A stretch of DNA of 40,926 bases from Caldithrix sp. GTDB taxonomy: Bacteria > Calditrichota > Calditrichia > Calditrichales > Calditrichaceae. Positions 20,415 to 26,776 of this stretch are shown in pieces (the stretch's first letter is position 1; each line of letters opens with the position of its first letter). The notes below the pieces were generated by a model. It worked only from the letters and a program-made list of their open reading frames with translations, was not told the DNA's origin and did no database searches. Made by a program: the position numbers and the translations under genes. The stretch spans positions 1 through 40,926 of the forward strand of contig DYOS01000013.1 of NCBI GenBank assembly GCA_020720405.1. Direction: 5' to 3'.

Positions 20415-22022
20415 TTAATTTTGGCCAGAGGCAACACTACCTAAGTATAAGATTTCATTATACTTGGCGAATATTTTTTGGTACTCTGACAGTTGTTTAT
20501 CCCGGGAGAGCAGGACCTGCCAGTAAGCCTCATTTCCCCAGACCTGGCGGGCTATTTCGGCTTTAACCCGGGTCACATATTCTGCACTTACCGAATTGGT
20601 TAAATTTATACTATCTGACAGTGTTCTTTGGTCTATGCCGGCAAGCAGTCCGATGATCAGCCGGTCAGAAAAACTATTTCTGATCAGGTTGTCGACAGAA
20701 TTTGTATCCACATCTCCTGAAGATAGCAATTCGAGAGCGGCGCTAAAGAACGCACCCTGAGCCAGGAGCCGTCCCGCCGCAGCGGTATCCGAATAGAAGG
20801 AACCCGACTCAACCATAAAATCCGGTTCAATTCCACCGCCGGAGGCTATTTCCCTGCCATTCCTGGTCTTGTAAACCTGGACAATGGCAGTGTTTTTCCC
20901 TGCTCCCTGGTGCTGATAATAAGCAGCCCGGTCAATTCCCTGATAATCTCTTTGGATCAGTCTTCCGGATGGGGTGAAGTATTTTGAGATGGTCAACCGC
21001 AGACGTGACTCGTCCGGGTAGGAAAATTCATTCTGCACAAGACCCTTCCCGAAACTTCTCTCCCCGGCAATCACTCCCCGGTCGTGATCCTGTATGGCTC
21101 CGGCCACAATTTCGGAAGCACTTGCTGAAAATTCGTTTATCAAAATGACCAACGGATACGTGCGGACCAGGCTTTTCCCGAACGTATCGGCAAAATATTC
21201 TTTATTAAACTGCTTCATCCGGCCTTTCGTCGAAACCACCGGCTGACGACCGTCAAGAAATTTTGAACAAACTTCTACCGCTTCCTGCAAAAGTCCGCCG
21301 GCGTTATTTCTCAGGTCCAGCACCAGCCTCTGCATGCCTTTCTTCTCCAGCTTGATCATCGCAGTTTCGACCTCATCCGAGGATGTCTCTGAAAAACGCG
21401 ACAACCAGATATACCCGGTAAGCGAGTCGAGCATGAAAAAGGTCGTCACCGATTGCAGGGGTATTTCAGAGCGGATAATTTCACAGGAGATGGAGTCGGG
21501 TATGGATTTACGGCTGACGGTTACGGTGACCCGTGAATTTTTTTCACCTTTAAGTCGTCTTGGGACATCTTCGGTGGAGATGTCTTTAGTAGTTGTACCG
21601 TCGATTCCGATAATCTGGTCACCGGCCAGCAGCCCGGCTTTTTCGGCAGGAGAATCCGGGAAAACTGAGATCACAAAAGGATAATGATTGAGGATATCGA
21701 ACTGGATGCCAATGCCAAAATAGCGGCCTTCAAATTCTTCGCTGTTACGCCGGGCTTCTTCGGCATTGATATAAACAGAATGGGGGTCGAGAGTATTCAG
21801 CAGACCGTTGACGGCACCCTCGCCGGCTGTTTCCCAGGCAATACTGTCCATATAAAATTGATCGAGCAATTCAATCGTCCGCTCAACTTTTCCCATGGCT
21901 TGAGATTTTGACGATGAACTGTCAAACCGCGGCTGAATCCACCCGCCAATACGCTCATCAACAATGGTCAATAACACAAGTAAGCCAGCAATAAGCAGGA
22001 AAGTCAACCGTTGCGCTGTCAT
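20415..22022 (-). CDS. S41 C-terminal processing peptidase (CtpA-like)
   Basis: A 535-residue periplasmic serine protease. An uncleaved signal/anchor (about 5-22) is followed by an N-terminal helical part, a PDZ domain (about 95-175; FPDSPAEKAGLLAGDQIIGIDG), and the S41 catalytic domain with the Ser/Lys dyad in EFSASASEIVAGA and RSFGKGLVQ. The extra ~150 C-terminal residues are helical. Its ATG overlaps the GH57 stop by four bases (ATGA), so it is translationally coupled to it. Confidence 0.94.
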   Translation of the reverse strand: MTAQRLTFLLIAGLLVLLTIVDERIGGWIQPRFDSSSSKSQAMGKVERTIELLDQFYMDSIAWETAGEGAVNGLLNTLDPHSVYINAEEARRNSEEFEGRYFGIGIQFDILNHYPFVISVFPDSPAEKAGLLAGDQIIGIDGTTTKDISTEDVPRRLKGEKNSRVTVTVSRKSIPDSISCEIIRSEIPLQSVTTFFMLDSLTGYIWLSRFSETSSDEVETAMIKLEKKGMQRLVLDLRNNAGGLLQEAVEVCSKFLDGRQPVVSTKGRMKQFNKEYFADTFGKSLVRTYPLVILINEFSASASEIVAGAIQDHDRGVIAGERSFGKGLVQNEFSYPDESRLRLTISKYFTPSGRLIQRDYQGIDRAAYYQHQGAGKNTAIVQVYKTRNGREIASGGGIEPDFMVESGSFYSDTAAAGRLLAQGAFFSAALELLSSGDVDTNSVDNLIRNSFSDRLIIGLLAGIDQRTLSDSINLTNSVSAEYVTRVKAEIARQVWGNEAYWQVLLSRDKQLSEYQKIFAKYNEILYLGSVASGQN

Positions 22023-24154
22023 GTGGCCGGTGTGTCCAGAATCTGGGTGAGATCAACCTGCCAGGTCTCGCCGGGCACCAGACTGATTGGCCACAGAAAG
22101 ACGATGCACGAACTTTGATAAACCCGTTCGAACCCTGCCTCGGAGAGAGAAATGGTTTGAACCGGTACTCTCCAGATTTCAGCCGGGCGGGAGGCGGATA
22201 ACTTTATGTCAATTCTCATGTACTCATCCCTTAACCCGATGGTAGTCTGATTTTGCCCGGACGCAGCCGAGTCGAGCCAGCCTTCTTGCAGACGGTTTCG
22301 GCCGTCTGTGTAGTAGCGGTCGTGGGCATGGCCGGCCTGCAAGCCGAAATTAAATTCAATCCCAAGTTTGGTATTTATCCCGTAATCACCCGTATTCGTT
22401 AACCGGTAATGAAAACCGGTTCCGGCTGTTGTTCCTGAAATTTCAATCGTTTTCTGAAGGTGAAGTACCTGATCACCAATTTTGCCATCACGACCAAGAA
22501 TGATAACTGCCTTCTCGTCGCTGCGCTCGGCAGAAACGATATTATAAGCAGCATTAATAAAATCACCCTGCTCAGTATACCGGCTTTGCTCAAATTCGGT
22601 AAACGTGGTCTGCTCTTCAAAAAAATGGTCAATCAGCGAACGGCGCAGATAAGAATCATAATTCAGGTATTTTTCGAGGCCGGCCTCTTTGGCTATAACT
22701 AAATCATGAATACTGGCCGCTCCATTGCCTTCTCCGTTATTCTGACCGGGTGTCTGAGCCTGGGCCAGTTTATTATGATAACCTTCAGGACGCCGGGTCA
22801 TCGTATCGAGGATATTTTTCGAGGCGGGTTTAAAATCGTGTTCCAGTAATACTCCACCGCGGAAAGGGCTGATGTAAATATTTTGTTTAGATGAATCGAT
22901 CAAAATCTCGTTCTCTCCGTCCAGATCGTAATCATAAATTTCAATTTGGGGAGTTTTAGCTGGTGTAAGCTTATCCAGCTCTTTTTCAGCTTCAATCAGA
23001 TTACTGTAAATAGCATGCCTGAGGTGACTTAAATACAAACCGCCAAACACGCCATGCCAATATGGGCAGTTACATTGCCCGGCCCAAAGATGGTCAAGTG
23101 CTTTGGATTTTGCGGCTGCGGGTTCGGATGAGGCGGCGATTTTGTTGCTGACCCTGAGCATTTTTTTATGCATCAGGTTCACTTCCGGGTATTTGGTCAT
23201 AAAATTGCGCCAGAAGCCGCCGCGGACAAAGAGACCGTATTGATCCAGTTTACCCTGATCGGCCAGCATGTGTTCAAAGTCTTCATAGTTGCGGAAGGAT
23301 TCGGTGAACAGCGCCCAGTGCATCATTTCGGCATAGGAAGCGGTGGGCAGATAAATGCGGTCTTTTGGCCGAACCTGCTCGATGACTTCCGCAAAGTGGA
23401 CCATCTCGATCCAGGATGATTCATTCTCCAGGGCGGTAAAAAAATTCTCCAGCCAGCCGTTTTCGTAAACATGGCGATAGGTATCCGGCCAGACCCCGAA
23501 TTTTTCACCATCATCAGCAAAAACAACGACTTTTTGCCCATCTTCACTGGCAAAATCCCTCAAAACATTTATAGTAGCCTGGGCATCCTGAAAAGGAATG
23601 GTGTACCTGAGCATTTTGTTAATGGGGAAAATTTTTACCGCCAGACCGTTGTCTTCAGTCATAAAGTAACCATCAAGGTCTCTATCCTGCAGACCGGTGT
23701 ATTTAAAATGGGTATCATCAACAACCGTGTATTGCATCCCGGCTTTGTTCAGCGATCCGGGTAAACCCGGCTCCCAGACCCGCTCGGCCAGCCACATCCC
23801 TTTCGGTTCGTAATTGAACAGGGTATGCACTCTGTCGCTTAATTTCCTGATCTGACCAATACGATCGTGCTCCGGAATAACAGAAAGAATAGGCTCATAA
23901 TAACCGCCCGACATCACTTCAAGCTGACCACGTCCAACCAGCGTCCGTACTTTTGTTAACAGATCCGGATGATTGATTTCAAGCCAGTCCAAAAGGATTC
24001 CTGTGAAATGAATCGAGATGCGGATCGCGGGATGTCTTTCAAGAGTTTCCAGGAAGGGCAGGTAGGATTTCTGATAGGCTTCTTCAAAAACAAAATCGAA
24101 ATTCCCGATTGGCTGATGATTATGAATTCCCAGCACAAATTTTATTTTCTTCAT
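22019..24154 (-). CDS. GH57 4-alpha-glucanotransferase / amylase-like enzyme
   Basis: A 711-residue cytoplasmic glycoside hydrolase family 57 enzyme. The N-terminal (beta/alpha)7 barrel has the family motifs HNHQP at 11-15, GGYYEPIL, WLAERVWEP with the nucleophile Glu, and VVFADDGEKFG with the acid/base Asp. C-terminal beta-sandwich domains (DUF1925/DUF1926 type, from about residue 400) match the Thermococcus-type 4-alpha-glucanotransferase, so maltodextrin or glycogen remodelling is likely. No signal peptide. Both ends overlap neighbours by 4 bases (speB upstream, S41 downstream). Confidence 0.93.
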   Translation of the reverse strand: MKKIKFVLGIHNHQPIGNFDFVFEEAYQKSYLPFLETLERHPAIRISIHFTGILLDWLEINHPDLLTKVRTLVGRGQLEVMSGGYYEPILSVIPEHDRIGQIRKLSDRVHTLFNYEPKGMWLAERVWEPGLPGSLNKAGMQYTVVDDTHFKYTGLQDRDLDGYFMTEDNGLAVKIFPINKMLRYTIPFQDAQATINVLRDFASEDGQKVVVFADDGEKFGVWPDTYRHVYENGWLENFFTALENESSWIEMVHFAEVIEQVRPKDRIYLPTASYAEMMHWALFTESFRNYEDFEHMLADQGKLDQYGLFVRGGFWRNFMTKYPEVNLMHKKMLRVSNKIAASSEPAAAKSKALDHLWAGQCNCPYWHGVFGGLYLSHLRHAIYSNLIEAEKELDKLTPAKTPQIEIYDYDLDGENEILIDSSKQNIYISPFRGGVLLEHDFKPASKNILDTMTRRPEGYHNKLAQAQTPGQNNGEGNGAASIHDLVIAKEAGLEKYLNYDSYLRRSLIDHFFEEQTTFTEFEQSRYTEQGDFINAAYNIVSAERSDEKAVIILGRDGKIGDQVLHLQKTIEISGTTAGTGFHYRLTNTGDYGINTKLGIEFNFGLQAGHAHDRYYTDGRNRLQEGWLDSAASGQNQTTIGLRDEYMRIDIKLSASRPAEIWRVPVQTISLSEAGFERVYQSSCIVFLWPISLVPGETWQVDLTQILDTPAT

Positions 24155-25011
24155 ACCTGGCTTCCGGATTTATATTTAAGGGTGATCAGTTTGTAAACAA
24201 GTTTGGCCGCTAAAAAATCAGCGGCATGGTAACTATCCATCGGACTTAATTCAACCACATCAAAACCGACCACATTGGCCGAGGCAAAAACCTTTTCCAG
24301 AAAACGCACGGTCTCATTCCACAGGAATCCACCAGGCTCAGGCGTCCCGGTTGCCGGCATAATTGAGGGATCAAAATAATCGATATCAAATGTAATGAAG
24401 ACATTCTTTTTCAGTTCTGTTAAAATTCCATCAAAACCATGCTGATGAATCTGATGGGCATAATAGGTTTTTATACCTTTTTCTCTTATAAATTCCGCTT
24501 CTTCAACACACTGGGAACGAATACCAACCTGTACAATATTTGGATTTAATTCGTAAATGCGGTGCATCACCGAAGCATGGGAATAAATGCTGTCTTCATA
24601 GGAATAGCGCAAGTCAGAATGGGCATCAAACTGGAGAACGGTTAATTCGGAAAATTTTTCGTGGAAGGCCCGGTAAACCGGAAAGCTTAGTGAATGCTCC
24701 CCGCCGAGGATCACCGGAAATCTGTTCCTGTCCAGAATAGATTTTACTGCCTGGGTGATAAGATCAAAATCCCGGGTCGTTTCACCGCTGAAATTTAAGG
24801 CCGGTTGGGTAAAAACACCCTGACGATAAGCTTCAGTCTGGTAAACTTCATCATACAATTCAACGAAACGTGAGGCTTCAATAACTGCTTCCGGTCCCCG
24901 ATCTGTACCAGTACCGTAGCTTGTGGTCTTTTCATAAGGTACAGGCAGCACTTCTATCAGAGCAGTTGCCTCAGCTGAAAATTCCGGTTCCAAACCTAAA
25001 AAATTATTCAT
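24151..25011 (-). CDS. speB: Agmatinase
   Basis: Ureohydrolase that cleaves agmatine to putrescine and urea. The 286-residue protein has all Mn-ligand motifs: GGEHSLSFP, FDAHSDLR (Asp, His, Asp) and FDIDYFDPSIMP. The absence of the arginase substrate-binding loop and the adjoining arginine decarboxylase favour agmatinase over arginase or formimidoylglutamase. I chose the ATG at 25011, preceded by AAGGGTG; a GTG at 25017 is possible. Located downstream of pdaD across a 150-base gap containing a large inverted repeat. Confidence 0.93.
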   Translation of the reverse strand: MNNFLGLEPEFSAEATALIEVLPVPYEKTTSYGTGTDRGPEAVIEASRFVELYDEVYQTEAYRQGVFTQPALNFSGETTRDFDLITQAVKSILDRNRFPVILGGEHSLSFPVYRAFHEKFSELTVLQFDAHSDLRYSYEDSIYSHASVMHRIYELNPNIVQVGIRSQCVEEAEFIREKGIKTYYAHQIHQHGFDGILTELKKNVFITFDIDYFDPSIMPATGTPEPGGFLWNETVRFLEKVFASANVVGFDVVELSPMDSYHAADFLAAKLVYKLITLKYKSGSQV

Positions 25012-25054
25012 CGTCACCCTTTGCGCGGTTTTTGCTCCGGATTAAATAATATTT

Positions 25055-25153
25055 ACCATCGGCCAGGAATTCTCTCCGGAAGCAGATTTGATATTCCAGA
25101 TTTCATCTGATTGATTTTATTGTTCAGACCGGAGGGTTTTTCCGGCCGATGGT
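25055..25153 (-). repeat. Large imperfect inverted repeat in the pdaD-speB gap
   Basis: Outer arms ACCATCGGCC (25055-25064) and GGCCGATGGT (25144-25153) match perfectly; inner arms CTCCGG (25074-25079) and CCGGAG (25129-25134) also match. The 9 bases between them on each side are symmetric in length and pair apart from three mismatches, giving a helix of about 25 base pairs enclosing a 49-base loop. A small hairpin (CAGAT/ATCTG) lies inside the loop. It occupies most of the pdaD-speB spacer and would fold in the mRNA as a stable structure. No T-run follows, so it is not an ordinary terminator. Confidence 0.75.
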
Positions 25154-25161
25154 TAGACCCG

Positions 25162-25707
25162 TCAGGGCAAAAGTACAGCCGCGGCAATTACTGTTGTCCA
25201 GAAACCATTCGGACTGCCCACCGCCGTCTGGGTGATGTTCTGTGTATGTACAATTTTACCCGAAATTTCCCAGGTCTGTCGTTTTTCATCCCAACTGGCA
25301 TCAGGATCAAATTCAACACCCAAAATGGTGGCCAGCATTTCTGCGGCAATATCCTCAGCATAATCACCCGATTGCTTTTCATCCAAACCAAAACCATGAT
25401 GCTCACTCAGGTAACCGTACATATTATTATCTTTTGGAATCGCCACACCAATCGAAGCAGCCAGCATACGATGCGGTTCATTGGTAGTGTTTTTACTATA
25501 GACTGCATGAACAATCTGTCCGGACTGCATCTCCGACAAACCTTCTTCGACCGAGACAATTTCACAACCGGCAGGATAAATGCTGGAAACGGCAACCAGA
25601 TTGAACGGTGCAATCCGGGCATTCCTCAAGGCCATTTCGAAACTGGTCAGCTGCTCTTTGTGAATTCCAACGCCTTTTGTAAAAAATACTTTTTTGGGTA
25701 CATACAT
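25162..25707 (-). CDS. pdaD: Pyruvoyl-dependent arginine decarboxylase
   Basis: Decarboxylates arginine to agmatine, the first step of the two-step putrescine route completed by speB. The 181-residue proenzyme contains the self-cleavage site Ser41-Ser42 in VAVSSIYP; cleavage converts Ser42 to the pyruvoyl cofactor. Other family motifs are GEIV-like CEIVSVEEG and the C-terminal [21 protein letters not shown] core TAVGSPNG. The ATG is preceded by AAGGAG. It begins 15 bases after the zincin peptidase stop. Confidence 0.96.
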
Positions 25708-25722
25708 TTTAAGAACTCCTTC

Positions 25723-26715
25723 TTAGTTTTTTTCCAAATATTCATCCTCCCAGGAAGAAATTTTTTGGTTGTTCCGTCTTTTAATCTGGCAAAATGCCAG
25801 TGCCATTAATATTAAAATAAAAATCCAGATCAGAATTGGGGAACTGATCAAACCGATGGCAGAGTATCGCTGGCGAATCCAGGTCTGCCATTGATGATTA
25901 AAACCGGTAAAATTTTCACCGGTCTGCCGTAGAAAAACACGGTCATAATTTTCCCCACCGCCAATTGCCCGGGTCAGTTCAACCAGCGACTCCAGCCCAT
26001 AAGTCTGGTTATAATAAGTTGTGGCCGACAAACTTAAGGCATAGGACTGGCCGGCGCCTGAGCCGGAAAGTGGGCCAGGGTGTTCCAGGTCTGTCAGATC
26101 AAGCTTTTTTCCCGCAAGGGTCAGCCAGCTCAGTATCATCGCTTTGGAAAAATCAATTTCTTCCCCGCTGAGCAAATCGGCCAGACCCTCATGCAGCCAC
26201 CAGGGGATGCGGTTGGTCTTATCCAATCCGGCCAGATGAATGTGAACCAGCTCATGTAGCAACACCGCAGGCAGATGCTCAAGGTCTTCCGGTTTAGCAG
26301 TACGGATGTATATCCTGTTTTGCTCCGGCAGGGCAACCGCCTGACTCCAGCCGGGCGGTTCAAAACCCGATAAACCCGTAATTTCTGTCAAAGAACGAAC
26401 GATGACTATCTCAATCCTGCCGGTCGGTTGTCCAAACAAAATTTCAAACTCTGCGGCCCGTCCGGCACATTGTTCGGCTGCTTCTGCTATAATGCGTTTT
26501 TGCTCAGGCGGGACAAGGATAACTGCGTTTTCAGTAAGGAAAATTTGCTCCCCATTCTGCCCTGCTGCAAAGCTTGCAAATATAGGGAACAGGCTTAGTC
26601 TTAACAATAATTTTTTGAAGCTGAGTGTAATTTTATAACCCTGAATTCGGGTGATTTCAGGGAGAAAAAATTTATAAAAAATATTCTTCCGGGATCCGGA
26701 CCTGAAATATGGCAT
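25723..26715 (-). CDS. Zincin peptidase with C-terminal membrane anchor (peptidase MA-like)
   Basis: Putative metalloprotease of 330 residues. A signal-like hydrophobic stretch lies near residues 30-50, the zinc-binding HELVHIH at about 155-161 is followed by WWLHEGLADLLSGEE with the third ligand Glu about 20 residues on, and a membrane segment (LIWIFILILMALAF) sits close to the C-terminus. The fold matches the 'peptidase MA-like' gluzincin group. The frame also opens with a TTG at 26745; the ATG at 26715 with AGAAGGAAA upstream is preferred. Substrate unknown. Upstream spacing to pdaD suggests a shared transcript. Confidence 0.86.
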   Translation of the reverse strand: MPYFRSGSRKNIFYKFFLPEITRIQGYKITLSFKKLLLRLSLFPIFASFAAGQNGEQIFLTENAVILVPPEQKRIIAEAAEQCAGRAAEFEILFGQPTGRIEIVIVRSLTEITGLSGFEPPGWSQAVALPEQNRIYIRTAKPEDLEHLPAVLLHELVHIHLAGLDKTNRIPWWLHEGLADLLSGEEIDFSKAMILSWLTLAGKKLDLTDLEHPGPLSGSGAGQSYALSLSATTYYNQTYGLESLVELTRAIGGGENYDRVFLRQTGENFTGFNHQWQTWIRQRYSAIGLISSPILIWIFILILMALAFCQIKRRNNQKISSWEDEYLEKN

Positions 26716-26776
26716 TTCACCGGGTTTCCTTCTGTGAATTATCAAGTTGTAATGAAATTTCCATCTGAAAGAATGA

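Follow-up and report, generated by a model that had tools for sequence, protein, structure and literature searches.

Genomic context of the pdaD-speB junction

We analysed a stretch of 40,926 nucleotides (hereafter the window: positions 1 to 40,926 of contig DYOS01000013.1), which is part of a 3.33-Mb draft genome of Caldithrix sp. (GCA_020720405.1). The locus of interest lies on the - strand and comprises, in gene order:

25723-26745, - strand: gene for an unnamed protein, first in order, before pdaD
25162..25707, - strand: pdaD, pyruvoyl-dependent arginine decarboxylase, 181 aa (PF01862, PvlArgDC, E 1.3e-61; TIGR00286 over cut-off)
25129..25153, - strand: 5' arm of an imperfect inverted repeat, mRNA sense (repeat search and pair count)
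25080..25128, - strand: A+T-rich loop of 49 bases with a small inner hairpin (folding)
25055..25079, - strand: 3' arm of the inverted repeat, mRNA sense (repeat search and pair count); outer 10 base pairs perfect
25008..25054, - strand: speB translation start and spacer tail; the stem is not followed by a T-run, and an AAAGGG Shine-Dalgarno-like stretch lies ~30 bases away from it
24151..25017, - strand: speB, agmatinase, 288 aa from the listed GTG (PF00491, Arginase, E 3.6e-66; TIGR01230 over cut-off)
22019-24154, - strand: glycoside hydrolase 57 (GH57) gene, after speB
20415-22022, - strand: further open reading frame, after the GH57 gene

The domain matches confirm the two genes named in a preliminary description of this DNA, pdaD and speB, as enzymes of consecutive pathway steps. 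Along the gene order the junctions measure 15, 144, -4 and -4 bases, the 144-base gap between pdaD and speB being the sole wide one. The tight same-strand junctions agree with a single transcript, and pdaD and speB are probably co-transcribed, judging from gene spacing alone. By match to the starts of relatives, the likely start of speB is the ATG at 25011, which would give a gap of ~150 instead of 144 bases.

Geometry and folding of the inverted repeat

Repeat search recovered the arms at 25055-25079 and 25129-25153 with 49 bases between them, and folding the small inner hairpin in the loop, both as first described. The count of three mismatches given at that time is valid only when G-U pairs are included on the + strand: 20 of the 25 positions of the ungapped arms form Watson-Crick pairs (five mismatches), and G-U pairing adds two pairs on the + strand (three mismatches) and one on the - strand (four mismatches). 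The - strand is the mRNA strand of the hairpin, the + strand being antisense to pdaD and speB. The hairpin does lie in the pdaD-speB gap, as had been stated, but it occupies 99 of the 144 bases and not the whole of it; its stem begins 8 bases past the pdaD stop codon and ends ~30 bases ahead of the Shine-Dalgarno-like stretch of speB.

A 103-base stretch spanning the repeat reaches a minimum free energy of -36.3 kcal/mol when read as mRNA and of -45.6 kcal/mol on the opposite strand. None of 2000 dinucleotide shuffles folded as well on either strand (z of -5.2 on the mRNA strand and -6.7 on the other). We also ranked G+C-adjusted folds in a set of 13,386 stretches drawn from the window plus 17 further parts of the genome (~363 kb). 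The element comes 1st on the + strand and by the better of the two strands, 3rd when the strands are averaged, and 26th when the mRNA strand is taken alone.

Of 60 Markov-shuffled windows of 41 kb, one contained arms of equal or better quality; the window itself has one such pair, and another occurs in 322 kb of other genome stretches (a perfect terminator-like hairpin in L121). The thresholds for arm quality were taken from the element itself, which makes these shuffle and sample counts post hoc. In a looser gapped scan the element does not stand out: its score of 15 was attained in 37 of 40 shuffled windows as well. Taken as a whole, the inverted repeat is real and statistically unusual.

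The + strand folds better by 9.3 kcal/mol and ranks first of the 13,386 stretches, which would suit a small antisense RNA with a branched fold, made from the + strand and acting on the operon mRNA. However, the sampled stretches include larger strand differences (such as -42.3 versus -22.1 at L117:17761), no promoter-like site is found on the + strand just upstream, and no relative has the element. We consider such an antisense RNA very unlikely.

Conservation in relatives

The panel of relatives comprised 60 genomes including that of the window, all others from outside the genus; 33 have pdaD, and loci from 30 were examined. Within the class, 26 relatives have a pdaD locus, and speB adjoins pdaD in 16. 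Gap lengths are approximate, as start codons were taken from lists of open frames. In 15 of the 16, the gap measures ~62 bases or less (with one overlap) and lacks a comparable hairpin; in the remaining one (G004) it is ~192 bases. The gap of the window minus the 99-base repeat is 45 bases. Beyond the class, 8 more loci hold both genes, with gaps of at most ~91 bases. The other 10 class loci show no speB match, and several loci stop at contig ends. In three of these 10 (L011, L018 and L019) pdaD is directly followed by a GH57-like gene, assigned by eye, with no speB between; the operon has thus probably acquired or lost speB at this place.

The short spacers of the relatives are too divergent to align, and the element is absent from them. 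DNA searches over 60 and 40 genomes returned no homologous element but only short pieces, of 23-34 bases in the 39 other class genomes. The true query matched four other genomes besides its own compared to 0 of 40 for the reversed query at the same threshold; some of this excess of short matches may be real, or may be due to composition. Three of the short matches (two in G021, one in G009) were dismissed as chance-like, all lying inside long open reading frames. The preliminary description had looked to conservation or compensatory change in relatives; the element turned out to be missing from them altogether, so no covariation model could be built. Separately, 26 of 30 bases of the loop recur in a multi-copy repeat of a class relative, G023. 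That genome carries an inverted-repeat element of ~145 bases (L041, L072-L084) with at least 33 matches, out of 755 first-look candidates, and its arms differ from those of the window element.

Copy number and relation to known repeats

The element is single copy in its own genome (next best match 31 bits, E 0.22), and its arm pattern, with up to 3 mismatches allowed, recurs at only two other sites, each with 3 mismatches. The further copies of the arms for which a genome search had been proposed are thus not there, and a multi-copy mobile repeat of this genome is ruled out by the single copy. At the flanks of the element no direct repeat exceeds 3 bases, and a clear target-site duplication is missing. 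A parent element with these arms was found neither in the genome nor at its two IS200-type transposases, and a REPIN of these transposases was rejected after comparing their flanks, which are unrelated to the arms of the element. In the same genome, near-identical REP-like palindromes of 27-28 bases flank an IS200-family transposase on both sides (L154:78-105 and 665-691, contig C172).

Other origins were discarded in turn: there is no plasmid match, the single phage match is at chance level, and the two viral contigs matched by a 24-letter arm pattern were judged near chance. An integron attC site was considered as well, a GTTAGAC motif overlapping the outer end of the arm. Such sites have spaced double boxes and not a continuous outer stem; by eye, the outer stem of the element is continuous, without spaced double boxes.

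In two other genomes the same gap holds palindromic repeats of its own. The 192-base gap of G004 contains one (L012:1845-1925) that has 41 matches within G004 but is not matched in the genome of the window, while the 91-base gap of G048 contains a different palindrome with 14 matches at ~8 places in G048 and, again, none in the genome of the window. The junction therefore tolerates palindromic insertions, and by analogy the window element may be one more of them, its sequence being different again. The mobile element suggested in the preliminary description is thus supported only indirectly, by the absence from the spacers of relatives and the other palindromes in this gap; a second copy and a flanking direct repeat longer than 3 bases are missing.

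Like REP, REPIN and MITE-type elements, the window element has ~100 bases and inverted arms around a short loop, and sits in an intergenic gap in which the relatives examined do not carry it. Unlike them, it is single copy and without flanking duplication, and its arms are unrelated to the palindromes beside IS200. According to the Caldithrix abyssi genome paper (PMC5317091), that species has an 18-base REP-like intergenic palindrome in 38 copies; we count 38 exact copies of AACCGTTNNAACGGTT in the same-family relative G005, equal to the published number. G005 is therefore probably C. abyssi, and the window probably stems from a relative of it at the family level. The palindrome resembles the window element in being intergenic and from the same bacterial family. 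Nonetheless, its core AACCGTTnnAACGGTT, present once in the genome of the window, differs in sequence, and the element is not a copy of this palindrome.

Termination, ligand sensing and speB translation

No T-run follows the stem on either strand (the tails are AAATATTATTTAATCC on the mRNA strand and TAGACCCGTCAGGG on the + strand), and a terminator scan of the pdaD-speB gap reported nothing. The earlier remark that the hairpin, without a T-run, does not look like a terminator thus holds on both strands. A strong stem directly after the pdaD stop codon is what a transcription attenuator or terminator between the two genes would have, but the missing T-runs and the empty scan make this highly improbable. 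Transcription may still end in the gap in a Rho-dependent manner.

In a 600-base mRNA context, the outer base pairs of the predicted fold have probabilities of 0.88-0.99, and part of the speB start region is predicted to be open while the hairpin is there. When the hairpin is deleted in silico, some bases around the speB start become more open and others less so. Based on these predictions, the hairpin may have a modest effect on speB translation.

A structure responsive to polyamines or arginine had been proposed at the outset, with conservation as the test set beforehand. Lying as it does between the genes for successive steps in a pathway, the element would suit an RNA that senses polyamine, agmatine or arginine and sets the expression of speB or pdaD, and its size and loop could accommodate a binding site. 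The proposal did not survive: the element is missing from all class relatives that keep the pdaD-speB pair, failing the conservation test, and no terminator or Shine-Dalgarno-masking fold was found. No Rfam covariance model reached its gathering score, the best being chance-level snoRNAs (17.8 versus 45 bits and 17.5 versus 39; E 1.2 and 1.5). For want of homologues and of an above-threshold Rfam match we rejected a ligand-binding RNA, a reading that we hold to be extremely improbable.

A proposed lineage-specific insertion as the best explanation

The explanation that we favour, with moderate confidence, is a lineage-specific palindromic insertion or its remnant which, if it acts at all, does so as a passive intercistronic stem-loop. 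A single-copy palindromic stretch of ~99 bases, probably a small insertion or remnant, would have widened an otherwise tight junction; we infer the insertion from spacer length and by analogy. The stretch is probably transcribed within the pdaD-speB mRNA and would fold there into a long stem-loop, 8 bases behind the stop codon of pdaD. This stem could slow 3'-to-5' decay into pdaD and could separate the translation of pdaD from that of speB, a gene with a ribosome-binding site of its own. Changes in mRNA levels are a deduction from this model. The mRNA-processing site of the preliminary description, or a decay site, may also apply.

The stem-loop reading gains from a hairpin that beats its shuffles on both strands and pairs with high probability in the 600-base context; the stronger fold of the non-mRNA strand, the shifted pairing around the speB start, the single copy and the missing target-site duplication count against the explanation. 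That intercistronic stem-loops can shield the mRNA on one side of them or the other is established for E. coli (PMC5927463). The window hairpin resembles the decay stem-loops treated there, of the malEFG REP, puf and papBA, in being T-run-free and in the gap between two genes of a presumed single transcript, but it is a predicted structure, occurs in one genome only and is not conserved.

It is also quite possible, if somewhat less probable, that the element is a neutral remnant that leaves the operon unaffected, either a decayed REP- or MITE-like inverted repeat or a palindrome that arose by chance in additional spacer. The single copy, the absence from relatives, the imperfect arms and the lack of a flanking direct repeat longer than 3 bases all fit, as do the different palindromic repeats that G004 and G048 carry at this junction. 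On the other hand, the stem has kept enough pairing to give, on its better strand, the top G+C-adjusted fold of the ~363 kb, and neither the genome nor its two IS200-type transposases yielded a parent element with such arms. Overall, we favour a passive decay barrier or spacer; no role at all is nearly as likely, and ligand sensing is improbable.

There is a slim chance that the element has become a species-specific structured RNA, sense or antisense, recruited from an inserted palindrome and tuning the flux from agmatine to putrescine through the PdaD:SpeB ratio. The pdaD-speB junction could then be a repeated site of such recruitment, other lineages holding unrelated palindromes there. A literature search by titles and abstract openings found no description of this element. 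The element matters little alone; it shows how a tight operon junction can be opened up by a palindrome that is not conserved. Should the hairpin set the enzyme ratio, this would be a small natural case in which acquired spacer DNA tunes the expression of an operon.

Finally, the same genome contains a very stable nested palindrome at another place (L119:4000-4140, contig C154), in a stretch without open frames of at least 100 codons.
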